Source: Halalkalibacter oceani (GTDB taxonomy: Bacteria; Bacillota; Bacilli; Bacillales; Bacillaceae_D). Taken from it: a stretch of DNA of 64,000 nucleotides. The position numbers were made by a program, and so were the translations under genes. A model generated the notes under the pieces. It ran no database searches and was not told the origin of the DNA. It was given only the letters and a program-made list of their open reading frames with translations. Below, one piece after another: positions 43,500 through 59,702 of this stretch. The first letter of the stretch is position 1. Every line of letters begins with the position of its first letter. The stretch is from assembly GCF_023715605.1 (NCBI RefSeq), contig NZ_JAMBOL010000009.1, positions 1 through 64,000 on the forward strand. Reading direction: 5' to 3'.

Positions 43500-44594
43500 T
43501 CAAGCCCTTGCTTTCTTTCGGATCAAGCCGACGATATAGAGCAAGAGCGGAACAAACAAGCCGAGAAAGAGAGAAACGGGAATCCAGGTTTCCCCCGCAA
43601 ATTCCCGAATGGAGCCGGTATTAACCGGAATCGCATGAGACAGCGCCAGGACAATAAACGACATCGGCACGACAAAAATATGATAGCGTTGCAAATTGGC
43701 AAGCTGCTTAAACAGAAAGAGGGAAATATACATCAAGATCGCAATCTTGACGAATGATGTAATAATCCATTGGACGGCGATCACCGCTTCGATTCTTTGT
43801 AAAAAGTCCCCCAGTCTGATTTTCTTGGCGGCAAAAAAACTTGGAAAGTTGAGCGCGGCAGACAAATTGGCGCCGATCGTTAACAACGTCACCATCGCAA
43901 TCGTAAAAATAATCAAACCGCCGACCAAAACACCAGCTATGAAATAGGTTCTTTTTTTCTTCGTTTTATTGACGACGGGCAAGAGCGGAAGAAATAAAAC
44001 AAGCTCCAAAAAGGGAATCGACAGCATTAGCAGAGAACCGTCGACAACTTGACGTGGGCCATTGCCGAGAAACGGCTTTAAATGGGAAAAGTCGATATTA
44101 TTAGCCGTTAACAGAACAGGGGCGATCACGACAAGCACGACGATCGGAAAGAAGATCTCCGCCCCCCTGGCCATCGTTTCAATGCCGTACAGCAGGGCGA
44201 CAATAACAGCGGCGAGAAGTAAAATTTGCAGCGCGTACATCGGTGTCTCAGGCATCATTTGCGTTTGGAGGAAATCACTCGTATCGCGCAGCACCATGCT
44301 CGTTAATAAGATCGAAAACAGAAAGTACACGATAGCAAGGAAGGTTCCGAGCCACGTCCCGAGTATGCTTTTTATCATGTCGACAAACATAAGCTGAGGA
44401 TACAGTTCATGCAGCTTAAGATAGAGGTACACAAGCAGAAGGCTACAGCTAATCGCGATCACCCCGGCAAGCCAGGCATCCTGCTTTGCATATTCGGCAA
44501 GAGCGGATGGCAGCACCAAAATCGTGCTGCCCATAATAAACAGAGCGACGAGAACGGTAAATTGATAGCCATCTATCTTTTCTGTCTGCTTCAT
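43500..44594 (-). CDS. Spore germinant receptor B subunit (GerAB/GerKB family)
   Basis: About 364 residues, ten hydrophobic segments, amino-acid-permease-like fold of the spore germination B family (DGYQFTVLVALFIMGSTILVLPSALAEYAKQDAWLAG at the N-terminus). The B subunit binds the germinant in the inner spore membrane. ATG 44594 (MKQTEKIDG) lies 8 nt after AAAGGA; readings further upstream are less supported. Last gene of the operon. Confidence 0.92.
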   Translation of the reverse strand: MKQTEKIDGYQFTVLVALFIMGSTILVLPSALAEYAKQDAWLAGVIAISCSLLLVYLYLKLHELYPQLMFVDMIKSILGTWLGTFLAIVYFLFSILLTSMVLRDTSDFLQTQMMPETPMYALQILLLAAVIVALLYGIETMARGAEIFFPIVVLVVIAPVLLTANNIDFSHLKPFLGNGPRQVVDGSLLMLSIPFLELVLFLPLLPVVNKTKKKRTYFIAGVLVGGLIIFTIAMVTLLTIGANLSAALNFPSFFAAKKIRLGDFLQRIEAVIAVQWIITSFVKIAILMYISLFLFKQLANLQRYHIFVVPMSFIVLALSHAIPVNTGSIREFAGETWIPVSLFLGLFVPLLLYIVGLIRKKARA

Positions 44595-44608
44595 GATCAT
44601 TTCCTTTC

Positions 44609-44824
44609 TCAATTGAACAAGTGTACTAGCCATTCAAGTCCTTTTAACGGATCAGGCAGCTTCCCCTGTAGACTAAGGATTAGATTAAGGCTTATCCCGC
44701 CAACGGCCAGCAGGCCAAACAGAACCCATTCTTTTTTCGTGAACTTGTTTTTCACCATATAAGGGATAGAAGCACCAACCATCATAATCGCCAGCGTGAT
44801 TACCATTGCGAGCGGCCACAGCAT
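44609..44824 (-). CDS. Germinant receptor D-type small membrane protein
   Basis: 71 residues with two membrane helices (residues ~1-22 and ~34-52). Small two-helix D subunits occur in many ger operons and modulate receptor activity. Its start overlaps the C-subunit stop (TAATG), and it is followed 14 bp later by the B-subunit gene, supporting a real coding function. Confidence 0.8.
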   Translation of the reverse strand: MLWPLAMVITLAIMMVGASIPYMVKNKFTKKEWVLFGLLAVGGISLNLILSLQGKLPDPLKGLEWLVHLFN

Positions 44825-46032
44825 TATTCTTCCTCCATAAGTTTTTTCACCGATTGATTCGTGTTTCCGGTTCCGATCAGCGTCACTTCAACATCCACCT
44901 CAACATCCATCGTCGCAAAACGCTCATTCCAATCGCTTTCGACGCTTTTCCATTCCTTTGGCCGCTGCTGATACAATTCCTTACCAAATCCAAAAACATC
45001 AGCCTTCAGCTCCTGTGCTTTGGCGATTGATTGTTCGACCTCCGTTGCAATTTGCTCTGATGTTCGCTTTTCGATTTCAGCCAGGCTATGTCCTGTAGCT
45101 GTATCGATACTGCATTGAACGTTGCCAAGTTGTGCTTCCGCCTTGATCGTCACCGTTCCGCTTGGATGGCCATTATTCATGTCGGTACGAAGCTTCGCTT
45201 TCGTACGAAGCAATTCAACGCCGATAAAGGAGTCTTCCGCGGTCGGACAGGCGACATTCACGATTGTGCTCGTTATATTATTCTGGGCATAATTTAACCC
45301 GATGCTTTCCCGCTCATTTAACCAGCCAATCAGCCTGTCCCGGGAAAAAACCGCCATTTGCTTAAACGAAAGCAATGCAGGAAGCTCACTTTCCTCCAGA
45401 GCTTCAAGCTCCCCGCCGACATCCGGATCTCCTTCAATGATGACTCCCGTGATCGCTGCCTCGATTCCTTTGCCGGCGAGCTCGGTTAGCAGTTGATCAA
45501 TTTCAATTGTTTTCGATGCTCCCCATGAGCTTTGCGACGCCTTTAATGACTGGTGCATCTCATTGGCCGGCAGCTTATCAATAACGGTCAGCACTTCCAG
45601 CACATCACTCGGTCTGGCATTTCTCGCTATTAAAAAATAAAAATCCGTCCGAAATTCATGATCTCGAACCAGGAAATCAAGCGCTTCAATAATGCCTTCC
45701 TTAGCCAGCTCCTCATCGATCACAACAACCTGGGTGTAGGATTCATATATTTTACGCGGAACCGTCATCGTTAATCTGCGCAACGCTTCAAACATCGTCA
45801 TGCCCGTCTCTGAATAAACGACAACCGGGGTATACGTTCCGGTACCCGGCTCCTGCATCGCAATCGCGGAAGGATTAATGACTTGGACGGTCACCCGGAA
45901 TTCCCCGGCTTCCGTTTTTTCAATTCCCATTGCATGCGAGATCGCAAGTTCATTTAGCTCGCGGCGATTCCAGCAACCAGACAGAATGACGAGTAAAATC
46001 AGAAGAAGAATCATCATCCGTTTTTTCTTCAT
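44824..46032 (-). CDS. Spore germinant receptor C subunit, Ger(x)C lipoprotein
   Basis: 402 residues. Lipoprotein signal MKKKRMMILLLILLVILSGC, then NRRELNELAISHAMGIEKTEAG, the hallmark of Ger(x)C proteins; three alpha/beta domains follow. Anchored in the outer leaflet of the inner spore membrane. Start overlaps the A-subunit stop by 4 bp (ATGA). Confidence 0.94.
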   Translation of the reverse strand: MKKKRMMILLLILLVILSGCWNRRELNELAISHAMGIEKTEAGEFRVTVQVINPSAIAMQEPGTGTYTPVVVYSETGMTMFEALRRLTMTVPRKIYESYTQVVVIDEELAKEGIIEALDFLVRDHEFRTDFYFLIARNARPSDVLEVLTVIDKLPANEMHQSLKASQSSWGASKTIEIDQLLTELAGKGIEAAITGVIIEGDPDVGGELEALEESELPALLSFKQMAVFSRDRLIGWLNERESIGLNYAQNNITSTIVNVACPTAEDSFIGVELLRTKAKLRTDMNNGHPSGTVTIKAEAQLGNVQCSIDTATGHSLAEIEKRTSEQIATEVEQSIAKAQELKADVFGFGKELYQQRPKEWKSVESDWNERFATMDVEVDVEVTLIGTGNTNQSVKKLMEEE

Positions 46033-47579
46033 GTCTCTGGGTCACTTTCTCTAATTTTGTCGGCATGGTTTAACAGCTTCGGCCGCCTGATCATATCCCA
46101 CATCGGAACACGCAATAAATTATCTTTCTGATCGTTTATGTTAAACGGCGCCATCGGCGACATATACGGAACTCCGAATGAGCGCAGGCTGCACAAATGT
46201 AACGACAGGACGATACAGCCAATCGTTACGCCGAACAAGCCGAAGCTCGCCGCCAAACCCATCATCGGAAAACGCAAAATCCGAAATGCGACTCCCATAT
46301 TAAAAGCAGGAATGACAAAACTGGAAATCGCCGTAATTGCGACGATAATTACCATCGCTGCTGAAACGAGCCCTGCTTCTACAGCGGCTAATCCAACGAC
46401 CAGTGTGCCGACGATCGACACGGCCTGTCCTATCGCCCGCGGCATTCGCAATCCGGCTTCCCGAATAATTTCAAACGCCACTTCCATAATCAACGCTTCC
46501 ACAAAAGCCGGGAAAGGAACACCTTCACGTTGCGCATACAAGCTAATAAGCAATGTCGGCGGCAGCATCTCGTGATGGTATGTCGTAATGGCAATGTACA
46601 AGGAAGGGCCGAGCAAAGAAATCAGTAACGTCAGCAATCGCAAAATACGTAGTAGCGTAATATAATCAGAACGCTGATAATAATCCTCCGGTACTTGATA
46701 AAACTCCGTAAACAACGAAGGAACAACTAAAGCAAATGGCGTCCCGTTGATCAGAATCGCCACTCTGCCTTCCAGAAGCTTCCCGGCAACGGCATCAGGC
46801 CGTTCAGTACTTGAAACGGTTGGAAACGGTGTAAATGTCTCGTCCTGAATCAGTTCTTCGACATACCCGCTTTCTAAAATAGAGTCAACTTCAATCTTTT
46901 TTAGTCTTTCAAATACTTCTTTTACAATTTGCTTCTCAGCGAGATGGTCAATATAGACTACTGCGATATCGGTATTCGTTCTCGTTCCGATTTCCATGGA
47001 AACGATCCGCAGATCGGTCGTGCGCAGCCGCTGGCGGATTAATGCCGTGTTCGTCCGCAAAACCTCCGTAAACGCATCGCGTGGACCACGAACAAGCACC
47101 TCCGTCTGTGATTCCGTAATCCCCCGCTCCTGGTAAGACTTTGAATGAAGCGCGAGCCCTTCAGCGACTCCGTCTATTAACAGAAGCGTATTTCCGGCCA
47201 GCAAAGAGCGGTAACAGCTTTCAAAATCTCGAACAGCCGTGACGTTACTGCTTGCCAGCCTCCCCTTGACCTCACCCAGCGGAGACTGCGGCTCCCTGTC
47301 TTTCTTCTGTTCAAGCAGCGGAGTTATCATCGACTCTTCAATAAGCTCAGTATTGGTCAGCCCCTCGATATACATCAGCATCACCGGAATTGAAGTGGAA
47401 GCGGTCATCATTATTTTCCGGAACACAACATCACTGTCATGACGAAACGTCTCCCTGACCTGAGCTACATCCGCTTCCAGATTGCCCGTCAAGGCCTGAG
47501 GAAGCTGTTCCGCGCGCTCAGCAGGCCCGTGGGCTGTTTTTAACGTATTTGTTCGCTTTTTTTTCGAAAACAGCCGCAC
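46029..47579 (-). CDS. Spore germinant receptor A subunit (GerA family)
   Basis: About 516 residues. Cytoplasmic N-terminal domain, then 5-6 membrane segments with the GerA signatures SLYAQREGVPFPAFVEALIMEVAFEIIREAGLRMPRAIGQ and VPMWDMIRRPK at the C-terminus. GerA subunits form the oligomeric ion channel of the receptor. GTG 47579 lies 9 nt after AAGGAGG; ATG 47588 directly abuts the SD and is less likely. First gene of the A-C-D-B operon. Confidence 0.93.
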   Translation of the reverse strand: MRLFSKKKRTNTLKTAHGPAERAEQLPQALTGNLEADVAQVRETFRHDSDVVFRKIMMTASTSIPVMLMYIEGLTNTELIEESMITPLLEQKKDREPQSPLGEVKGRLASSNVTAVRDFESCYRSLLAGNTLLLIDGVAEGLALHSKSYQERGITESQTEVLVRGPRDAFTEVLRTNTALIRQRLRTTDLRIVSMEIGTRTNTDIAVVYIDHLAEKQIVKEVFERLKKIEVDSILESGYVEELIQDETFTPFPTVSSTERPDAVAGKLLEGRVAILINGTPFALVVPSLFTEFYQVPEDYYQRSDYITLLRILRLLTLLISLLGPSLYIAITTYHHEMLPPTLLISLYAQREGVPFPAFVEALIMEVAFEIIREAGLRMPRAIGQAVSIVGTLVVGLAAVEAGLVSAAMVIIVAITAISSFVIPAFNMGVAFRILRFPMMGLAASFGLFGVTIGCIVLSLHLCSLRSFGVPYMSPMAPFNINDQKDNLLRVPMWDMIRRPKLLNHADKIRESDPET

Positions 47580-47614
47580 GCTTCTCATCCTCCTTCGCAC
47601 AAGTTCCGTGACCG

Positions 47615-49035: not shown

Positions 49036-49764
49036 TTAACGCTCATCAGCTTCATTTTCATAATCTAAAAAAGGTGCAGACATACGGCTCGTGAAGTCCT
49101 TGACCATTTTCAGCAGATATCTATTTTCTTTTTTAATTTGATCATTTCTTTCTATTAGATTTGTATTTTCTGACTCGAGTGCAACAATCCGATCTTCGCG
49201 CTGCTTGACTTTGTTTAGCCAGTCCACCATTTCATTTTCATATTGCTCATTTAAAGCAGCGAACTTCTTCTGTTCCACCGTTATGATGTTTTTCAACTCG
49301 TCAATTTCATTCGTCAAATGAGATTTTAATTCATTATAGTCTTCTGCCAGTTGATCAAACTTTAAATTTTTATCGGTGATTTTTGTTTCGAGCACGGCAA
49401 TGTTATCATTTTTTTGATTGATCGTACGCTGCAATCTATTAATTTCTTTTCGCTGCTCCTCCAGTTGATCAGATAAATGCCGCGTGCGGTCCTGCTCCTG
49501 ATTCAGTTTATGCTCGGTTAACTGATATTGGTGGGCAACCTGCTCTACAGCAACAATCAAATTCATGATCTCTTTGCTGCTATTTTTAATGCTGCTGGAA
49601 ACGTGAAATAAAGCGCCAGAATCCTCCTCTTCTTTTCTGTCTCTTTCGCTTTCGCTTTCTTCAGCTTCCATGCTTGACTCCTGTTGATACTCATCTTGTT
49701 TAGACATTTCCTCTACTTGCGTCCCGGTCTCTTTCTTTATTAACATCTGAAACTTGTTAAGCAT
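49036..49764 (-). CDS. Coiled-coil protein of unknown function
   Basis: 242 residues, highly charged. Acidic segment (~25-50), then heptad-rich coiled coil from ~60 to ~215 (for example LSDQLEEQRKEINRLQRT). No signal peptide or membrane segment. AGGAGGG precedes the ATG. It lies 42 bp upstream of the deacetylase gene, so the two are probably cotranscribed and its coil might interact with that enzyme's cytoplasmic domain (inference). Confidence 0.75.
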   Translation of the reverse strand: MLNKFQMLIKKETGTQVEEMSKQDEYQQESSMEAEESESERDRKEEEDSGALFHVSSSIKNSSKEIMNLIVAVEQVAHQYQLTEHKLNQEQDRTRHLSDQLEEQRKEINRLQRTINQKNDNIAVLETKITDKNLKFDQLAEDYNELKSHLTNEIDELKNIITVEQKKFAALNEQYENEMVDWLNKVKQREDRIVALESENTNLIERNDQIKKENRYLLKMVKDFTSRMSAPFLDYENEADER

Positions 49765-49922
49765 GTGCCTTCCCTCCTGTACTGATCGTTACTAAGGAAT
49801 CTATTTAAAGGAAATTTGCGTATTCTTTTTTTCTTACTGGTTTCAATTTTTTATACTATCATTTCGACATATACAGCTTCTATACAAGGAGCTGCCGCAC
49901 ATTTCTTTTGCTGATTACAAAA

Positions 49923-49959
49923 GACTGAGCGCAAGGCTTGCATGCTCTTGCGCTCAGTC
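49923..49959 (-). terminator. Terminator of the S-layer-type gene
   Basis: GACTGAGCGCAAG / CTTGCGCTCAGTC followed on the minus strand by TTTTG. Confidence 0.85.
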
Positions 49960-49965
49960 TTTCTA

Positions 49966-52900
49966 TTACTCTACAATCTGTTCGTGCCCATCCTCATCCA
50001 GCAGGTAATAATGTGTTCGCGCTGCTTCCTCAATATGAGCAAATGCCCAATGACTGTTTGCCACATCAGGAAAACTCGAATCATTAATACCATAAAGTGG
50101 ACCGCGTTCAAACATACCATTTATCATCACGACCGCTTCTGCTCGTGTTAATCCCCCGTTTGGCTTAAAGCTGCCGTCCTGATACCCATTGATGATCCCC
50201 GCTGTGCGGTTAGCCTCAATGATATCTGCGGCCCAATGCCCGGCCGTATCGCTAAAGCTGATGCTGCTACCACGTTCAATTGCTAACTGACGATAATTGG
50301 CAACAACCGTCGCCATTTCCGCACGTGTTACGCGGTCATTGGCACGGAAATCACCATGCTGGTCTCCGGTCATGATCCCCTTTTCATGAACAAAGGCAAT
50401 TTCTCCAGCAGCGTAATGCCAGTCCGGCACATCCTCATACGGCATCAAGCCTGTCCATTCTCTTTCGTCATAATCAAGATTTCTGGCAATCATCACTGCC
50501 AGCTGTGCTCGGGTCACCTGTCTTGATGGCTTGAACTCACCATCCTGGAAGCCTTGAATATAAGCGTGGTGAAGCCCCTCAGCAGCTTCATCGCTCAAGA
50601 AATGAATAATCGTAAACGTACTGAACTTTTCTACTGAAAACTGTAAACCGAGCGTTCCATCCTGCATTGTTACCGGCGTTCCTCTAACTACTTCCTTATC
50701 ACCATCGGAATGCTCGATGAAAATTCCCAATTGCTGTAGGAATACCGCACGTTCGGCTTCGTCCTCAGGAAGTTCAACATCCCTCAATGGTAATGTTAAA
50801 ACAACCGGGCGGCTCGAGAGGTTCGTCTCAATTGTCTTCGGGCGGGCGACAACCTCAATGTTCCTGTCTCCTGCCACAGCACGAACAACCTGTTCCACCC
50901 GTGCTCGTTCTTCTATTTCCTCCCGCTCGTCTCTATCTTTCACCGGTACTAAACGGAAAAAGAAATCTTCGTCTATCCCTTCCAGCGATGTATGAGGAAG
51001 TTGAATCGTTGCATTCTCTGTAAAGATCTCCAAGTCGATTCCATTTTCTTGCAGCAACGCTACAGTTGCTCTTGGCACATCAACAAGGACTTCACTGACT
51101 TCGTCATTTTGGTCAGGAATCACAATGCGCACGATCTGCTCTTCCGCCTCGATTGCCTTCTCGATCGCTTCTTCCGCTTTTTCTTCCGTAAATGTTACGT
51201 GATCCGAGATCGTCCCATCTCGATGAGTTGTCCGCTCAATTGGCGCCTTCGTGATATCAACCTCATTATCGCCGCCAATGATGACATCAACTTCAATAAT
51301 TTCGGTAACCGGACCTGGGGTGCCACCGCCATTTCCGCCACCTGAACCTCCGCTTCCGCCGGAGCCGCCGTTACCTCCACCGGAGCTGCTGCCGGCTCTT
51401 GTCACAATAACTTCATAATAACCGAGTAAAACATGCGGGTTCTCCTTGTCATAAATCCCGACCGTAATGACATTTTCACCGACTCGCAATGGAAGACGGT
51501 CGAAATCATCGACTGTCGTGCCGTTCACCTGCACGACTACAATCGACTCTTCTTCATTTACGGCTTCTGGCGACAGACTGATACTGCTTACGGAATGCGG
51601 TACACGTGCCGAATAGCCGCCCGGAATCGTCGCTGTAAACTCAGCCGGCTCAACCTCAATTGGATCGGCTCCATTCATGAGTCCAAATCCGGCATTTGTT
51701 AACCGTCCTCCTGGATTAACAAATGGTACTGCAAACGCATCTGCCTCAGTAAACGGCTGAAGCTTGTTAGCACCGTTACCGACCTCTTTAATATTACCTG
51801 GCGAATAGGTCAGCACATCTCCCGGCTGGTAGTCCACCGGCAATGCAACAGTCAGCATATTGCCATTCACTTCATAAGGTTTAAGCACAGGCGCACCACC
51901 AAGCTGTAAACCTGACAGATCCAAGTCGTCACCTGAAGCGACCTCCTTATTAAAGATGACCTTTAACTTGCCGTCCTGTATATATGTCGTCACTACTTCT
52001 AACGGAATAATCTCGTTTTCCTTCGTGATTCCGCTTTGATCAGCTGCCGAAATCGGCCCTAATTCATTTGTCGGATCATCCGCAGCTACGATCGATCCCG
52101 CCTCATCATCATATTCAACAACTAACGGAGCTTCAGGCGCAAACGGCTCTGCAAACCTTACAACAACCTCACGACCATTAATGCTTTTCACTTCTGTTAC
52201 CTGCTTGCCATCAATGACGAAGCCGATAAAATCATTTACATCCAAATCACCAGCTACTACTTGATTAAACGTTAACGTCGCTTCATTCGGCGTACGATCA
52301 GCGACGCTGACATGTTCAAGACGTAATGGTCCACCAACGATCACGGTAAAATCATCTACCGCCACCCCGTTTGTCCCTTTAACATTTCCTAACCCGTCAT
52401 AACTGATCGTAACTTCTTTTCCTGTCGCGTCCGTTCCAGCTGGCAATTTCACCAAAAGCTTCGCCGGATCAGCAGGATCGCTTTCAACCGTTGCTCCTGT
52501 AATCTCTGTTCCATCTACAGTCACAGTAAAGCCTTCAGTATCTACCACAGTCACTTCACGATCAAAGGTAATCGCAATTTCGTCCGCCTCCTGAAGCACC
52601 GACCCCGTTTGTGCCGGCACAGGAGCAGCAAATGTAAAGTAGCGTCCATCTGTCAAAATGCTGCTATTAATCGTTACTTCACCGTCCGTCAACGGATAAA
52701 AGTTGTTGCCAGAGGCAAATGACGATCCATTGTTCACGACTAAATATTGCGGTCCTGTTGTTGCCCCTTCCAGAGCATCTGCCTGGAGCGTAATTTGTGT
52801 ATCTGCCCAATTATTCGTTTTTTCTACTTTAAAAACACGGTCAAGCCGTTTTACATTTTCGTCATCCTTATTAATAGCTGTATTATATTCAGCTGCGCCA

Positions 52901-54864
52901 TTATCATCACTAAATGTAAAAAATGATAAGTCTCTTGCAATGTTATTGGTATTAGCTGAATTCGATAGCGCGATCTCGTCGCCTAAAGCAACGGTTACAA
53001 GCGCACCAGTCTCCTGTGATTGCGACTGCTTCTGCACAAGACCGCTGGCATCATCGCGGCCAATCCCGGTAATCCGGTGACCATAACCGACATTCTCATT
53101 TTTCGTCCACATCGTTGTAGAGCCATCACTAGCAACATAATCGTCCGGCAACGTCAGTCCATATTTAAGCGCCAAATAACTATTGACCTGCTGCCGTTCT
53201 TCATCCTCAAGCACGCGGTTAAACAAAATGACTTCTGAGATGGAGCCATCAAACCGTTGATAATGGCCTCCACCAATATAATACATACTACTAGAAGAGC
53301 TTGTATTTGTTGTTACTTCATTGCTGGGATATTCCTCCAATGTTTGTCCATCAAGCGCAAGAGACCAGTGGTTTGTAGCGCTTTGGATATTTAATACACG
53401 GCTTTTAAATAGATCGTAGCCGTCAACAGAAACGTCTCTAACTTCCGTTGAGGAAAAACCTGCACGGATGTGCTGTTCTCCGTCAATGTCTACTCCATAT
53501 TGATGATTGCGATCAGCATCTATTCCTCCAAAATTCCATGGATATCCCGATCTGTCTGGATTCGTCCTCGCCTGTACAGAGAAAATTTCTCTTGCCTCAT
53601 CCTCGTGTCCAAATCGGTTGGTCTCATAGAAACCTGTTGCTGCTGTAATCGTCACGCCAGGATTAAAGTTAATGGTGTTCGCTTCATATCTTTGCTCTGG
53701 TGGACTCACACGCGAACTCCAGACTCTCTCATCAGCCAAATCATCCAAGTCTGTTACAATTCCATCGATAACATTCGCACTCTTTTCCACCTCGACCCAT
53801 GACGTTAATCCGTCCGAAATACCGCCGGGACTTTGAACATTGGCCGGTGCTTCAACCTCAATTGTCTTCGTTGCGGATAGGGTGACGACCGGATCATCAT
53901 CTGCCCCACCGTATTCCACAATGTATCCTGTAACACTGTTGTCAATAGGGAAATCATTCCAATATCCATGATTGGTAGTACCCGGACCATAAATATGGGC
54001 GACATATTCCCTTCCGCTGGAATCATTTGGCTCACCCGTTGCCCAATTGTTATAGGCACCAGGAACAGGACCAGCTTCTGCTTCCCCATCGTAGCCAAGA
54101 TAGAATGGGGTTCCCTTCCCGTCATCCGCTTCGCCTTCCGGACCTGTCACCCAGCGCCAATCGCCGCGCTCAGCTTCGGCAACCGCATCATCGCCACGGG
54201 AAATATCCTTTGCACCGATCCAGCCGAGACCTTGTGTCTTTCCTTTGATAAATTCATTTTCATCCTCATCCGTGATCGTCACGAGATAGCCTTGCAGCCC
54301 AAAGTAGTCACTTTCGCTTGCTGCATCTCTTGCTTGATACCACGTTAAAGATGAACCATTATCCACAAATTCATAAAAATGACCGTTCTCACTAAATGGC
54401 AGGGCACTACCAAGACCAAACGTAATCGTCCGTTCACCGGCGTGTTCGGAATCCGTAGAGAACGTGACACTTTGTAAGGCGGCTTCAAATTGTTCCGCTG
54501 TCGGCACTGTTGCCCCATTTCCTGTAATCGTCAGAATGGCGGAGCTCGGATCATAGTGTCCTGTAAATAAGCTACTACTATCGTCAAAATCCAGCGTATC
54601 CCCCGCTTGAGCGTTATCGATGCTGACCGTCACCGCTTCCAATGTACCTGTCTCTATATTCAGTGACACTTCTTCATCAATGATGACCGGAGCATTGTCT
54701 ATTACATAGTTAGTAGCTCCTGTTGAAGTCGAGATCCCTGTCACTCCATCCGCTGCCGCCACCGGTCCTGCGGCAGCAAAAAAACCGCTCGCTACTAGCA
54801 GCGCGCTCATGGTGGCTGCAAACTTTTGCTTCAACCATTTCTTTTGCCTGCTTCGTATTTTCAT
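49966..54864 (-). CDS. Giant SLH-anchored surface protein with C-type-lectin-like and LamG-like domains
   Basis: 1632 residues. Signal peptide (~1-38, ends AAGPVAAADG). C-type-lectin-like domain ~161-320 (YEFVDNGSSLTWYQARDAA, GWIGAKD, NNWATGEPND, YWNDFP, GYIVEYGG); LamG/concanavalin-like region ~380-580; three SwmB-like beta repeats ~750-1050; cadherin-like beta domain ~1060-1150; Gly/Ser linker ~1160-1182; three SLH repeats ~1425-1610 that bind pyruvylated cell-wall polymer. Probably a carbohydrate-binding adhesin or S-layer-associated protein. GGAGGG lies before the ATG, which overlaps the stop of a 38-codon ORF. Confidence 0.9.
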   Translation of the reverse strand: MKIRSRQKKWLKQKFAATMSALLVASGFFAAAGPVAAADGVTGISTSTGATNYVIDNAPVIIDEEVSLNIETGTLEAVTVSIDNAQAGDTLDFDDSSSLFTGHYDPSSAILTITGNGATVPTAEQFEAALQSVTFSTDSEHAGERTITFGLGSALPFSENGHFYEFVDNGSSLTWYQARDAASESDYFGLQGYLVTITDEDENEFIKGKTQGLGWIGAKDISRGDDAVAEAERGDWRWVTGPEGEADDGKGTPFYLGYDGEAEAGPVPGAYNNWATGEPNDSSGREYVAHIYGPGTTNHGYWNDFPIDNSVTGYIVEYGGADDDPVVTLSATKTIEVEAPANVQSPGGISDGLTSWVEVEKSANVIDGIVTDLDDLADERVWSSRVSPPEQRYEANTINFNPGVTITAATGFYETNRFGHEDEAREIFSVQARTNPDRSGYPWNFGGIDADRNHQYGVDIDGEQHIRAGFSSTEVRDVSVDGYDLFKSRVLNIQSATNHWSLALDGQTLEEYPSNEVTTNTSSSSSMYYIGGGHYQRFDGSISEVILFNRVLEDEERQQVNSYLALKYGLTLPDDYVASDGSTTMWTKNENVGYGHRITGIGRDDASGLVQKQSQSQETGALVTVALGDEIALSNSANTNNIARDLSFFTFSDDNGAAEYNTAINKDDENVKRLDRVFKVEKTNNWADTQITLQADALEGATTGPQYLVVNNGSSFASGNNFYPLTDGEVTINSSILTDGRYFTFAAPVPAQTGSVLQEADEIAITFDREVTVVDTEGFTVTVDGTEITGATVESDPADPAKLLVKLPAGTDATGKEVTISYDGLGNVKGTNGVAVDDFTVIVGGPLRLEHVSVADRTPNEATLTFNQVVAGDLDVNDFIGFVIDGKQVTEVKSINGREVVVRFAEPFAPEAPLVVEYDDEAGSIVAADDPTNELGPISAADQSGITKENEIIPLEVVTTYIQDGKLKVIFNKEVASGDDLDLSGLQLGGAPVLKPYEVNGNMLTVALPVDYQPGDVLTYSPGNIKEVGNGANKLQPFTEADAFAVPFVNPGGRLTNAGFGLMNGADPIEVEPAEFTATIPGGYSARVPHSVSSISLSPEAVNEEESIVVVQVNGTTVDDFDRLPLRVGENVITVGIYDKENPHVLLGYYEVIVTRAGSSSGGGNGGSGGSGGSGGGNGGGTPGPVTEIIEVDVIIGGDNEVDITKAPIERTTHRDGTISDHVTFTEEKAEEAIEKAIEAEEQIVRIVIPDQNDEVSEVLVDVPRATVALLQENGIDLEIFTENATIQLPHTSLEGIDEDFFFRLVPVKDRDEREEIEERARVEQVVRAVAGDRNIEVVARPKTIETNLSSRPVVLTLPLRDVELPEDEAERAVFLQQLGIFIEHSDGDKEVVRGTPVTMQDGTLGLQFSVEKFSTFTIIHFLSDEAAEGLHHAYIQGFQDGEFKPSRQVTRAQLAVMIARNLDYDEREWTGLMPYEDVPDWHYAAGEIAFVHEKGIMTGDQHGDFRANDRVTRAEMATVVANYRQLAIERGSSISFSDTAGHWAADIIEANRTAGIINGYQDGSFKPNGGLTRAEAVVMINGMFERGPLYGINDSSFPDVANSHWAFAHIEEAARTHYYLLDEDGHEQIVE

Positions 54865-54977
54865 GTTCTCCCTCCATCCATTACTAGTGTTTCGAATTGT
54901 TCCTTATCGACATTTCCTTTCCTTGCTTTATCCGCTTCCTCCACCTCCTTGTCCATCCGCCTGCCAAAATCAGACAT
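54861..54977 (-). CDS. 38-residue leader ORF coupled to the surface-protein gene
   Basis: Starts MSDFGRRMDKEVEEADKARK, then GNVDKEQFETLVMDGGRT; charged, no membrane segment. AAGGGGG lies 7 nt before the ATG. Its TGA overlaps the ATG of the 1632-residue gene (ATGA), so ribosomes finishing it could restart there. Family not recognised. The ribosome binding site is part of a 15-bp sequence shared with the leader of the response-regulator gene. Confidence 0.55.
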   Translation of the reverse strand: MSDFGRRMDKEVEEADKARKGNVDKEQFETLVMDGGRT

Positions 54978-54982
54978 TTTCT

Positions 54983-54997
54983 ACCCCCTTAATTCAC
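54983..54997 (-). repeat. Shared 15-bp leader sequence, copy 1
   Basis: Minus strand GTGAATTAAGGGGGT, directly before the leader ORF of the surface-protein gene. The same 15 bases occur at 56619-56633. The rest of the 54865-55217 gap holds the regulator terminator and nothing else recognised. Confidence 0.7.
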
Positions 54998-55130
54998 GCA
55001 TAAGTATAAAGAGCGGACCTTTACATTATCTATACACCGAACTTATAGACCTGGGACTTTACTCCTTCCACAGCTCCCTCTTACTATTCCAGCAAAGAGG
55101 AATCTCTTTCTCGGCCCCTGTAAAATCAAA

Positions 55131-55166
55131 AAACCCGAAAAATGGCCATCTCCATTTTTCGGGTTT
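55131..55166 (-). terminator. Terminator of the BTAD response regulator gene
   Basis: AAACCCGAAAAATGG / CCATTTTTCGGGTTT followed on the minus strand by TTTGATTTT. Confidence 0.92.
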
Positions 55167-55217
55167 CGAGCGGTGATTTCTCGAAAACAATTAGTTAGAC
55201 CTATTTCGTAAGGCCCT

Positions 55218-56369
55218 CTATCTGGTGTTTGATTGTCTTATTTGCTTCCACTGCTTATACCAAACTAGAACGACTTCACTCGGCTGTAATTCGAGCTCCC
55301 GCTTAAATCTTGATAATAAAAGCTGGTATTGTTCTTCGACATCTGTTTCGGAGCCAACCGCATCATAACATCGCATCAGCTCGAAATAACTGTCCTCCTC
55401 TAACGGAAACAGCTCCTGCATCCGTTCTGCAAGTGGAATGGCGGCTTCATAATCGCCTTTTTCCTCGTAGTATCTTATCATTTTTTCATAATTTTGGCGC
55501 CACAAACGTCGCAGTTTTTCCCGCTTTGCCTCCGCCCACATATAATCGTAGACACCAAGATAATCCTCCTCGTAGGCAAAAAGCAGCTTTTCATAGTCTC
55601 TAATTGTGTGAGGAGCAGGCTCTTTGATACGTTTAAGCTGTTCTTCCCATTCAAGGTAATCAAGTTGAATGCTTCCTCCCAGCTCCAGTCTGTAACTGCC
55701 ACCCAATTCTCTCCCGCTCCTAATCGTAATTTCCGTTAACCCGGCTTGTTGCAAAGCCTGGCGAATATGGTAAACCGTCGTATACAATTGCTGAAGTGCT
55801 CTATCCACATCAAAATCCGGCCATAATAAGTCAAGCAATGTCCCTCTTTCCACATACTTACCATGATGGTGAAGGAGGAAGGCAAACAACTCCTGCGCCT
55901 TTGCCGTCCGCCATTTCATCTGCTTACGCTCTTGACCTGGCGCTTGTACCGTGAGCGGCCCGAAGCAACGAAGCATGACTCCTTCCTTCTGCTGTTCAGG
56001 GCTCGTTTCTATCTTCTGTCGCAAACGTTGGATCGTCTTCTTCAAACGGGGTAATCGCAATGGTTTCAATAAATAGTCAAAAGCAAATAGTTCAAATGCT
56101 TCTATCGCATAACGATCATAGCCTGTGACAAATACAATTTCCACCGCCGGATGGACTTCCTGGATATGGGCGGCAAGCTCAAGACCGTTGATTTCAGGCA
56201 TATGTATGTCCAGAAACACGCTATCCGGGTTAAGTGTACTTACTTCTTCAAGTGCCTGATGAACATTTAAATACGTTTTGAGCACGTTAATTCCCTCAAA
56301 CTCTGACTCCAGCATTTTTTTTAATTGCCTAAGTGGTAAATGTTCATCATCAATTAAAATCACATCCAC
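55218..56369 (-). CDS. Response regulator with DNA-binding and BTAD domains (SARP-like)
   Basis: 383 residues. Receiver domain 1-~120 with acidic pair DD (7-8), phospho-Asp at 54 (VFLDIHMPEI) and KPLRLP; winged-helix DNA-binding domain ~140-235 (RGTLLDLLWPDFDVDRALQQLYTTVYHIRQAL); bacterial transcriptional activation domain ~245-375. GTG start, 6 nt after AAAGGAGGAAGG. Divergent from the double-kinase gene and most likely its partner; the surface-protein gene just downstream is the obvious target candidate. Confidence 0.9.
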   Translation of the reverse strand: MDVILIDDEHLPLRQLKKMLESEFEGINVLKTYLNVHQALEEVSTLNPDSVFLDIHMPEINGLELAAHIQEVHPAVEIVFVTGYDRYAIEAFELFAFDYLLKPLRLPRLKKTIQRLRQKIETSPEQQKEGVMLRCFGPLTVQAPGQERKQMKWRTAKAQELFAFLLHHHGKYVERGTLLDLLWPDFDVDRALQQLYTTVYHIRQALQQAGLTEITIRSGRELGGSYRLELGGSIQLDYLEWEEQLKRIKEPAPHTIRDYEKLLFAYEEDYLGVYDYMWAEAKREKLRRLWRQNYEKMIRYYEEKGDYEAAIPLAERMQELFPLEEDSYFELMRCYDAVGSETDVEEQYQLLLSRFKRELELQPSEVVLVWYKQWKQIRQSNTR

Positions 56370-56432
56370 TCGTGTCCTTCCTCCTTTCTTAATCCTCGTA
56401 TCCTCCTACGCTAACTTAACTATATGTAACAT

Positions 56433-56470
56433 ATCATATAAGCAAAATGAATTATTTGACAAGTCAAATA
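56433..56470 (-). promoter_or_regulatory. Regulator promoter with inverted repeat
   Basis: Inverted repeat TATTTGAC-AA-GTCAAATA (56453-56470) overlaps a minus-strand -35 TTGTCA (56457-56462), 18 bp before TATGAT (56433-56438). Suggests autoregulation of the response regulator. Confidence 0.5.
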
Positions 56471-56569
56471 GCACACTCCTCTAAGAGAGTAGTATCGATA
56501 TTTTTCAATGTCATTGTTTAAATTAATGAAACAAGGTTCAAATTCTTTATTTATCCAAAATAAATCTCT

Positions 56570-56598
56570 TTGACACTTATGTTAAAATGGGTTACTTT
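56570..56598 (+). promoter_or_regulatory. Candidate promoter of the double-kinase gene
   Basis: TTGACA (56570-56575), 17 bp, TTACTT (56593-56598). Good -35, poor -10. Confidence 0.4.
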
Positions 56599-56618
56599 TC
56601 ATAACAGACATCATTTTC

Positions 56619-56633
56619 ACCCCCTTAATTCAC
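56619..56633 (-). repeat. Shared 15-bp leader sequence, copy 2
   Basis: Minus strand GTGAATTAAGGGGGT, followed by GAAAATGATGTCTG; the match to copy 1 at 54983-54997 continues as AAAATG..TCTG. It lies upstream of the regulator gene in the same orientation as copy 1 lies to the surface-protein gene. A 10-codon ORF (MMSVMKSNPF, 56582-56614) follows it. Confidence 0.65.
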
Positions 56634-56657
56634 ATTTTCAAGAAATTGGGTGAAATG

Positions 56658-59600
56658 ATGAAAAAAAAGAAAATCTTCCTGGTAATCAGTTTATTCCTTG
56701 TTTTTCTCACATGTATACGTTTACTGTGGTTATCATTTATCGCGATCCCTGAACATTATTACGCTGTAGATGGCGTGATAGACTTCCGCACCAACGCGTT
56801 ACCGAAAGCTAGCACGCTCATCCTTGGTGGTGAGTGGAACTTTATATCTGCACAACTGCTCAGTCATCAAGGTGATCCTTTGCTCCCTACTAGGCGTGAA
56901 CTTGTTCCGGGTGAATGGACAAAGCGTGACACAACTGACTCTTTTCAATACGGCACGTACCATTTGCAATTGATACTTGCTGAAGAAGATTTATATAAAA
57001 CGTATGGTATGCGTATTCCTTCTATCCGCTCGTCTTCCCAAGTCTTCATCAATGGCCAATTACTTGGTAGCTCCGGCGTGCCAGCCGATAGTCCAAGCTC
57101 ATATATGGCCAGCAACGTTCCCTATTCCGTCTCCTTCTATGCCGATCAGCCGGAAATAAATATATTCATCCAGGTTGCTCACAGTTCTCTGGACCCTAGA
57201 CCCGGCGCAATTCAACAAAGCATTACATTCGGTTCAATGGAGGCCATTAATCAGGAAAGCATGATCAAAACCGGCAGTGAAATTACGGTTGCTGTCATCT
57301 TTCTGATTCATGCCTTTTACGCCGGCATTCTTTACCTGCTCGGAGCAAGACAAAAAGTCTTGATTTACTTTATGCTGCTTACATTAGCTGCCACACTTAT
57401 GATATTTGTTAGTGACAGTAAACTCTTTTTTTCTTTTTTTGACGTTAGCTATCCGTGGCAAATTAAAATTGTTTTTCTTACGTATACGTGCGTTGCTTTG
57501 TTCTTACTGTTATTTTTTAAACATTTGCTGCCCAACTTTACAAATCATTGGGTCTTTTTCGCCATTCCTCTGCTTTGGATGCTCTATCTTTTGTACATCC
57601 TTTTCGCACCATTAGAATCTATTTTACGCTTCAGTTTCATCTTATTATTTATTTTGCTCATCCCGGCTTTCGTGATAATGCACCAGCTTATCCGGACCAT
57701 TATGTATAATTTGGAGGATTGCCTTCTCCTGCTTCTCGGTACAGTGGCGATTATTAATAATGTTGCCTGGGCCTCGTTAAAGCATCGAACAGAGATTGAG
57801 TTTCCGTTTTATCCATTTGATTTATTGTTTGTAATCATTTTCTTCTCAGCGTTCTGGTTCAAGCGCTATTTTCGTGCTGCAGAACAAACGGTAAAATTAT
57901 CTGAAGAACTGCAAAAAGCTAATCAGCAAAAGGATGAATTCTTGGCTGCAACATCACATGAACTGCGAAACCCTTTACACAGCATCGTCATGATTGCCGA
58001 GCATTTATTGAATTCAGAAAAAAATCTAAGCCCAGATAGTAAGCAGAACGTAAATATCCTGCTTAAAGTGAGCCGGAGAATGACACTCCTTTTGGATGAT
58101 TTACTGGACTTCACCAGATTAAAGAATAAACAACTTAAGCTCCAATTAAGTCCGGTAGAGGTCGCTCCTGTTGTAACAGGTGTTCTAGATATGCTGCGCA
58201 TTATCGCTGACGGAAAGACCATTCACTTTGTTTCTCAAATCGATGACCGTTTTCCTCCTGTTAAAGCTGACGAACACCGCCTTGTACAAATTTTGTTTAA
58301 CCTCGTTCATAATGCGGTGAAATATACCGATCAGGGAACAATTACGATTTCCGCTTCCGTAGTAGGAGATTACGCTTACATTAACGTAAAAGACACAGGT
58401 ACCGGAATTGATGAGACGGTGCAAACAAAGATGTTCAATCCTTATGAACAGGGAGATGCCAGCTCTGCTTTGGCTGCCGAAGGAATAGGACTTGGCCTGA
58501 CAATTTGCCAACAATTAGTGGAATTACATGGGGGGGAGCTAACAGTTATTTCAGAGAAAGGACAGGGCTCGCTCTTCACTTTTTCTTTACCGTTAGCAGG
58601 GCAACATGAAGCTGACATCAAAAACAGGACTCCCCGACCATCAGCAAGTGACGAAATTAGCGCTACAAAAGTGCAGGCTGAAAGATTAATGAAACCGTCA
58701 GCAACAAGTACTGCCCATATTCTAATTGTCGATGATGACCCGGTTAATTTACGAATTATGCAAAATACTCTTTCTTCCAATTCCGTTATAGCAGTGACTG
58801 CCCGAAGTGGAGAGGAAGCGCTTTCTTTGTTGGCAGAGCACAATTGGGATCTAATTATTAGTGATGTGATGATGCCACAAATGTCCGGTTATGAATTAAC
58901 AGCACTGATTCGAAAACGATTTACTGTATCCGAATTACCTGTGCTGCTTTTAACAGCCCGTACCCGCTCGGAAGATATCCATGCAGGCTTCCAAGCAGGG
59001 GCAAACGACTATTTGGCAAAGCCAGTCGACTCAGTAGAGCTGAAAGCGCGCGTTGACACTTTAGTTCGGATTAAACAGACAACCGCTGAGCATCTTCGGA
59101 TGGAAGCTGCCTGGTTACAGGCTCAAATTCAGCCTCATTTTCTTTTTAATACATTGAACACAATTTTGGCATTACTTGAATATGACAAGCCTAAAATGAA
59201 AGAGGTTTTCGAAGCTTTTATCCATTATTTACAAGCTGGCTTTGACTTTGAGAATTCAAAGCACGTTATTCCGCTTGAACAAGAGCTTGAAGTCGTCCGC
59301 TCATATTTATTTATCGAGCAGGTGCGTTTCGGTCATCGCCTGGAGATCGTTTGGGAGAGGGATGAGACTGTTAACGTTCTTGTGCCGCCACTTGCGATCC
59401 AGACACTTGTCGAAAATGCCTTGACTCACGGGATATTAAAGCAAATAAACGGAGGGTCTGTCCGAATTTCGATTATTCGTCAGGAAGATGAAGCCGTGAT
59501 CACAATCGCCGATAATGGGGTAGGCATCCCTGCCCATATTCTCGAGCAACAGTTAAGCGATAGAAGACCGGATAAAGGCGGAGTGGGCCTATATAATACT

Positions 59601-59702
59601 GACCGCCGCCTGAAGCAATTGTATGGACAAGGGCTCGCCATTCAAACTCAGCTAGGGGAAGGGACCACCGTCTCATTCCGGCTTCCGCTAGACGACGAGT
59701 GA
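56658..59702 (+). CDS. Hybrid sensor with two histidine-kinase modules and a receiver
   Basis: About 1014 residues. N-terminal helix, extracellular beta (7TMR-DISMED2-like) domain ~30-210, seven membrane helices ~215-405, HisKA with SHELRNPLHS (His near 434), HATPase ~540-650 (NAVKYT, DTGTGID, GIGLGLTI), receiver ~688-805 (ILIVDDDPVN, phospho-Asp near 735 in ISDVMMPQ), then a LytS-type His_kinase domain (WLQAQIQPHFLFNTLNT, ~817) and a second HATPase ~905-1014 (NALTHG, DNGVGIP, GGVGLYNTDRRL). ATG 56658 with GGGTGA upstream. Confidence 0.9.
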   Translation: MKKKKIFLVISLFLVFLTCIRLLWLSFIAIPEHYYAVDGVIDFRTNALPKASTLILGGEWNFISAQLLSHQGDPLLPTRRELVPGEWTKRDTTDSFQYGTYHLQLILAEEDLYKTYGMRIPSIRSSSQVFINGQLLGSSGVPADSPSSYMASNVPYSVSFYADQPEINIFIQVAHSSLDPRPGAIQQSITFGSMEAINQESMIKTGSEITVAVIFLIHAFYAGILYLLGARQKVLIYFMLLTLAATLMIFVSDSKLFFSFFDVSYPWQIKIVFLTYTCVALFLLLFFKHLLPNFTNHWVFFAIPLLWMLYLLYILFAPLESILRFSFILLFILLIPAFVIMHQLIRTIMYNLEDCLLLLLGTVAIINNVAWASLKHRTEIEFPFYPFDLLFVIIFFSAFWFKRYFRAAEQTVKLSEELQKANQQKDEFLAATSHELRNPLHSIVMIAEHLLNSEKNLSPDSKQNVNILLKVSRRMTLLLDDLLDFTRLKNKQLKLQLSPVEVAPVVTGVLDMLRIIADGKTIHFVSQIDDRFPPVKADEHRLVQILFNLVHNAVKYTDQGTITISASVVGDYAYINVKDTGTGIDETVQTKMFNPYEQGDASSALAAEGIGLGLTICQQLVELHGGELTVISEKGQGSLFTFSLPLAGQHEADIKNRTPRPSASDEISATKVQAERLMKPSATSTAHILIVDDDPVNLRIMQNTLSSNSVIAVTARSGEEALSLLAEHNWDLIISDVMMPQMSGYELTALIRKRFTVSELPVLLLTARTRSEDIHAGFQAGANDYLAKPVDSVELKARVDTLVRIKQTTAEHLRMEAAWLQAQIQPHFLFNTLNTILALLEYDKPKMKEVFEAFIHYLQAGFDFENSKHVIPLEQELEVVRSYLFIEQVRFGHRLEIVWERDETVNVLVPPLAIQTLVENALTHGILKQINGGSVRISIIRQEDEAVITIADNGVGIPAHILEQQLSDRRPDKGGVGLYNTDRRLKQLYGQGLAIQTQLGEGTTVSFRLPLDDE

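Follow-up and report, generated by a model that had tools for sequence, protein, structure and literature searches.

SARP/BTAD activators have been described mainly as regulators of antibiotic production in Streptomyces. There, SARP/AfsR-type proteins combine an OmpR-type DNA-binding domain with a BTAD domain, and SARP boxes, placed immediately before the −10 element, are direct repeats of heptamers separated by 4 nt. Two other described groups are pertinent here: the 7TMR-DISM hybrid histidine kinases (an extracellular beta domain, seven transmembrane (7TM) helices and a cytoplasmic kinase), and the SLH adhesins and sortase-anchored collagen-binding/SpaA adhesins of Gram-positive bacteria. 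We examined a 64,000-nucleotide stretch of the Halalkalibacter oceani genome (contig NZ_JAMBOL010000009.1, positions 1 to 64,000; ‘the window’), in which the gene for a giant SLH-anchored surface protein lies together with genes for a BTAD response regulator and a divergently oriented double kinase. As judged from sequence, the locus probably encodes a two-component system that switches on a giant cell-surface adhesin, and sequence comparison associates the same regulator family and a shared promoter box with many differently built giant SLH and LPXTG surface genes in Bacillota.

The response regulator (55218–56369, minus strand; 383 residues, phospho-acceptor D54) matches the Pfam families Response_reg, Trans_reg_C (36.2 bits, cut-off 26.2) and BTAD (43.3 bits, cut-off 22.1), and thus carries the SARP-type pair of an OmpR-like DNA-binding domain followed by BTAD. 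Unlike the SARPs, it has a fused receiver and is presumably kinase-driven, its host belongs to the Bacillota, and its linked targets are giant surface proteins instead of antibiotic clusters. The double hybrid kinase (56646–59702, plus strand; 1018 residues; Pfam) comprises, in order, an outer domain, a 7TM region, HisKA (H438), HATPase, a receiver (D740), a second kinase unit of the LytS type (Pfam His_kinase; H831) and a further HATPase, so that the two-component residues are all present in both proteins. In overall plan it resembles the 7TMR-DISM kinases, but differs from them in having two kinase types around a receiver and an outer domain that matches the GH2 sugar-binding fold over most of its length (fold match; segment of residues 30–215, 56733–57290, plus strand). 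Its membrane region is called DISM-like only, since its sole 7TM match, to 7TMR-DISM_7TM, reaches 25.6 bits against a Pfam cut-off of 29. A kinase paralogue (59% identical) lies elsewhere in the genome (L104:8500-11577), with no BTAD response regulator in the fetched 20 kb.

The linkage of regulator and surface gene was assessed in relatives. The regulator was aligned with 13 relatives, and loci with flanks of up to 10 kb were fetched for the best 80 of at least 586 confirmed; 75 of the 80 hold a response regulator of at least 250 residues by simple calling of open reading frames (ORFs). Genes were called as longest ORFs, with a simple hydropathy rule as the criterion for secretion. In 31 of the 75 loci, a protein of at least 900 residues that is secreted or bears SLH or LPXTG lies within two genes of the regulator, compared with 2 of 284 genes at least five positions distant in those loci; dropping L154 and L178, which have neither SLH nor LPXTG, leaves 29 loci. 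A second set of relatives' loci gave a giant surface neighbor in 12 of 24 (window included) and in none of 77 controls. The giants vary in build: all 12 scanned proteins of the SLH type (window included) match SLH and seven are cadherin-like, with Big and lectin modules present too, while 18 of the 21 scanned LPXTG-type proteins match SpaA and 16 match Collagen_bind, the same make-up as the Gram-positive adhesins mentioned above. A sortase was found by regular expression at 1 of 16 LPXTG loci, a result that was not used; in L091 and L126 the presence of a sortase was verified with Pfam. Linkage thus held across many genera despite the differently built surface proteins. This was one half of the refuting check set beforehand for the original prediction, whose idea of a module is supported. 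The arrangement is not unique: many loci share it, and the window's is one example.

A TGTnnAG sequence repeated every 11 bp just 5′ of the −10 element was noticed in divergent intergenic regions between regulator and surface genes. In the window, the proposed regulator box and −10 of the surface-gene promoter (55003–55036, minus strand) read TGTATAG-ataa-TGTAAAG-gtccgctctt-TATACT. If the box is divided into two units of 11 bp and the −10 is assigned to positions −12 to −7, its center falls at −29.5, the same as that of the afs box, which is described as 22 bp long and centered at −29.5 in passages of PMC10936776 and PMC5930380. For SARPs, the distance quoted between the 3′ repeat and the −10 is 8 bp, as compared with 10 bp here by our own, uncertain, heptamer limits, and the heptamer in the loci studied here is TGTWNAG.

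With a score matrix derived from eight loci, the scores of 33 further surface genes greatly exceeded those of 208 control genes (Mann-Whitney p 9e-10). In leave-one-out scoring that included the −10, boxes scoring at least 12 were found before 29 of 39 surface genes, 3 of 215 controls (one of which is a second box in the window itself), 1 of 45 regulator genes and 0 of 23 kinase genes; L191 (a duplicate of L102) and L089 (cut) were kept among the 33 held-out rows and dropped from this scoring. The window's surface-promoter box scores 23.3. Leaving out an entire group (roughly a genus or a single genome) for each locus again returned 29 of 39, from 16 of 22 groups. The spacer between heptamers is strictly 4, that to TANNNT is 10 in 23 of 30 boxes, and the match to a −35 element ranges from 1 to 4 of 6 across 29 boxes. 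No box is present at the kinase or regulator promoter in the window, and such boxes are rare elsewhere.

Searching 397 genomes of the order with the exact pattern returned 81 sites in 60 genomes, as compared with 26 for the reversed pattern. The regulator is patchily distributed (60 of the 397 genomes at E 1e-50 or better), and genomes with the regulator and genomes with the box overlap in 36 cases where 9.1 are expected (p 1.3e-19, indicative only, because the genomes are related, and so not independent, and some supplied seeds). Site density is 0.93 per regulator-containing genome and 0.074 elsewhere, the latter equaling the reversed-pattern rate there, and 34 of the 56 sites in regulator-containing genomes lie within 10 kb of the regulator. 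The next ORF is a giant surface gene at 22 of 74 distinct sites with fetched surroundings, and 18 of those 22 regions hold the regulator; two of the 22 (L248 and L257) have boxes identical to seeds, leaving 20 of 72 independent of them. For these counts, 75 regions were refetched, two being contigs already used (L245 = L161 and L258 = L170), and 6 of the 81 sites, already among earlier loci, were not refetched; the 1059 background ORFs include overlapping regions and represent 1025 distinct proteins. When the spacer was changed to N5, 11 sites were found in 199 genomes (reversed control 20), versus 45 for N4 in the same genomes by hand count.

The window contains a second, weaker box (49853–49886, minus strand; TGTATAG-aagc-TGTATAT-gtcgaaatga-TAGTAT) upstream of a gene for a 242-residue protein, coiled-coil by eye and a possible regulon member (49036–49764, minus strand), which is followed by a polysaccharide deacetylase gene (PF01522; 47716–49023, minus strand; Pfam), probably the second gene of the same operon. 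That box stands after an inverted repeat that may end the surface-gene transcript (a possible terminator of 16-bp arms followed by TTTT; 49920–49962, minus strand; absent from the terminator-scan list). Because a strong terminator-like hairpin (55130–55167, minus strand) lies between regulator and surface gene, these two are probably separate transcription units. With such structures between them, the surface gene, the regulator and the coiled-coil/deacetylase pair appear to form distinct units, whose regulation would act in trans.

These features suggest the following scheme. The GH2-like outer domain of the kinase would bind a saccharide or another wall or extracellular ligand, and the signal would pass, as the order of domains implies, through the tandem kinase and its receiver to D54 of the BTAD regulator. 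Two regulator monomers could then occupy the two TGTWNAG heptamers, which lie 11 bp apart on the same side of the helix and span about −40 to −23 of the promoter. Bound in this way, the regulator might recruit RNA polymerase in the manner of a SARP, a step suggested by the geometry and by the association of regulator and box, and the SLH/lectin-like surface gene would thereby be switched on. Through the weaker second box, the coiled-coil and deacetylase operon would also be switched on; speculatively, it may tune the wall polymer that carries the surface protein.

More broadly, we lean towards the view that the Bacillota at large share a family of SARP-type response regulators dedicated to switching on giant surface adhesins of any anchor type. 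Such regulators would act by way of the box TGTWNAG-N4-TGTWNAG-N10-TANNNT, together with double kinases whose GH2-like heads sense sugars, and some would also control sortases and cyclic di-GMP enzymes. Among loci lacking a giant neighbor (the window's own added), 43 of 68 have no box scoring at least 15.5; in some loci of this kind a box precedes a sortase gene (L126), MHYT-GGDEF-EAL genes (L127 and L159) or the regulator gene itself (L159). The MHYT-GGDEF-EAL genes with boxes beside BTAD regulators are located at L127:11487-13541 and L159:11286-13328, a hint that the same regulators might control cyclic di-GMP.

We found no description of a dedicated SARP-type two-component regulator for such adhesins in searches of the open-access literature in PubMed Central (subscription journals lie mostly outside it). 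Judging by their titles, the papers there that name both BTAD and response regulator deal with actinobacteria, natural-product clusters or Ser/Thr kinases; in passages of PMC12175726 and PMC11557425, BTAD occurs only inside a DOI. What appears to be new is the proposed use of SARP-type activation for the control of giant adhesins, recruited by a two-component system whose sensor is sugar-binding-like; this machinery and sensor appear to set when Bacillota show their kilo-residue surface proteins. The box is a testable candidate binding site that helps regulon prediction in other genomes, and if the family-wide view is true, regulons would be predictable from sequence alone via the box. The inducer of giant surface proteins also becomes accessible to a simple reporter and sugar screen.

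A number of observations weigh against a switch of this kind, or limit it. The matrix seeds were picked by eye, and some of the 33 held-out loci had already been seen. Ten of the 39 surface genes have no box at threshold, including both Clostridia loci (L173 and L188) and L100, a second regulator-linked LPXTG gene of the window's genome. A kinase lies within four genes of the regulator in only 39 of 75 loci; kinase and surface gene are both near it in 17 of the 75. Across the order, 24 of the 60 regulator-containing genomes have no exact box, and 24 of the 60 box-containing genomes have no detected regulator (the site rate there being at background). In the window's own genome, allowing up to one mismatch yields 6 matches versus 4 for the control, so that the genome-wide test has little power there. 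No obvious target accompanies the other exact site of that genome, which is on contig C51. The window promoter also has a 4 of 6 match to a −35 element at 18 bp, and thus need not be activator-dependent. The second box departs from the pattern at one position, and no homologue of the coiled-coil gene was found elsewhere in the regulator-locus and box-site sets. Finally, the GH2-like fold alone demonstrates no function.

Two side observations concern the heptamers. The boxless gene L100 and its G007 counterpart L101 (G007 being a genome of the same genus) have an intergenic region with a different repeat of 11-bp period, TATAAG/TGTAAG, by eye; other branches of the regulator may read other heptamers. 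In Cohnella and Paenibacillus boxes (L142 and L145) a variant heptamer, TGGTTAG, occurs with the same spacings, which may reflect an altered regulator specificity.

The alternative that fares best leaves the switch in place and changes its signal: the kinase may sense wall damage or the state of the S-layer (for example, through wall-polymer sugars) and not an external glycan. A GH2-like fold is compatible with self-glycans, the proposed regulon includes a polysaccharide deacetylase, and the single deacetylase homologue in the locus sets named above (L095, E 1.3e-25) lies two genes from a regulator; we regard this as possible, if doubtful.

The heptamer repeats could instead be sites of another OmpR-fold regulator, with the BTAD protein acting elsewhere. 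PhoP and WalR, both general in the order, recognize TGTWA-type direct repeats that have the same 11-bp period and TGT core, and that need A at the fifth base. Only 1 of 29 first heptamers and 4 of 29 second heptamers have A there, and where no BTAD regulator was detected in a genome the box is no more frequent than background, despite the general occurrence of PhoP and WalR in the order. We consider this explanation improbable, and the BTAD regulator remains our candidate for the protein that reads the box.

The original prediction had pointed to a different element, a 15-mer shared by the leaders of the surface and regulator genes. The repeat is real: the 4.47-Mb genome has two exact copies only, both at those leaders. 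The first, which includes a ribosome-site-like run (AAGGGGGT; 54983–54997, minus strand), lies where the surface mRNA is predicted to begin, at about 54996–54997; the second (56619–56633) is located in the regulator–kinase gap, about 250 nt from the regulator start and at most 25 nt from the kinase start, within a 53-bp block that includes the kinase start and is identical in G007 (56608–56660, minus strand). Both copies have counterparts in G007 (one exact, the other differing at 2 positions and located in what remains of the surface promoter) and are thus old. As a common regulator site for the surface gene and the regulator–kinase pair, however, the 15-mer is quite unlikely. It is positioned downstream of the −10, carries its ribosome-site-like run before an ATG, is missing from the second box, and among 317 fetched loci occurs exactly only in those of the window's genome and of G007, while the surface promoter bears a different element that is common to other loci. 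Repeated 15-mers are ordinary in the window (24 such runs, versus 2–11 in ten shuffles), and a comparison of 29 other loci, outside of which the window's own locus stood, revealed no general long leader motif shared within a locus: in the 24 of these where separate leaders could be compared at least once, the longest exact word in common was 13 bp.

That the neighborhood is a mere by-product of surface loci and regulator genes occupying a common variable region, without direct control, would suit the patchy occurrence of the regulator but is very improbable, because the box precedes surface genes and rarely their neighbors, at a fixed distance to the −10, and because regulator and kinase are broken in G007, where the surface gene has been lost. 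In that genome, long aligned stretches around the locus are 81–91% identical in DNA, the surface and coiled-coil genes are missing, and two short matches to the deacetylase gene are left. Its regulator and kinase proteins are 84% and 79% identical to those of the window, with one nonsense codon in each, and the promoter relic retains box, −10 and the mismatched 15-mer.

The surface protein, a putative adhesin of 1632 residues (49966–54864, minus strand; ORF call and Pfam), carries three SLH repeats (E 3.5e-30; 50050–50604, limits approximate) and a cadherin-like domain (residues 1071–1136; 51457–51654; Pfam), all on the minus strand. Pfam supports the SLH, BTAD, receiver and double-kinase assignments of the original prediction, at the genes it named, and its lectin-like, LamG-like and DISM-type labels all correspond to matches below cut-off. 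The LamG-like domain (residues 427–556; 53197–53586, minus strand) scores 21.6 bits for Laminin_G_3 against a cut-off of 27.6, and the outer kinase domain given the DISM-type label is instead similar to GH2 sugar-binding domains; as the original prediction proposed, it may read a sugar related to the one bound by the lectin-like domain. The C-type-lectin-like domain (residues about 144–345, with GEPN and WND motifs; 53830–54435, minus strand) matches Lectin_C at E 0.03 when the whole protein is scanned and at 20.7 bits (cut-off 22.6) when excised, and is therefore called lectin-like only. That label is supported by a region 47% identical to it, in an SLH protein of Anaerovorax odorimutans (L188) that also adjoins a BTAD regulator, which passes Lectin_C (2.6e-9, 38.2 bits). 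A model of the domain from a two-sequence alignment (predicted local distance difference test score 34) was unusable, and no fold claim rests on it. The N-terminus has a typical signal peptide by eye, but the simple hydropathy rule did not call one.

Several minor features accompany the module. A 38-codon leader ORF (54861–54977, minus strand) could use the strong ribosome-site-like run of the first 15-mer copy, and its stop codon and the surface-gene start codon overlap as ATGA, which may allow translational coupling. The surroundings of the 53-bp block are about 80% identical to G007, and the block contains an inverted pair, TTTCACCC/GGGTGAAA, by eye; a small ORF after the second 15-mer copy was rejected as a candidate, as it is not conserved in G007. 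Directly downstream of the module, a three-gene operon (43500–47600) resembles a spore-germination receptor of the GerA type.
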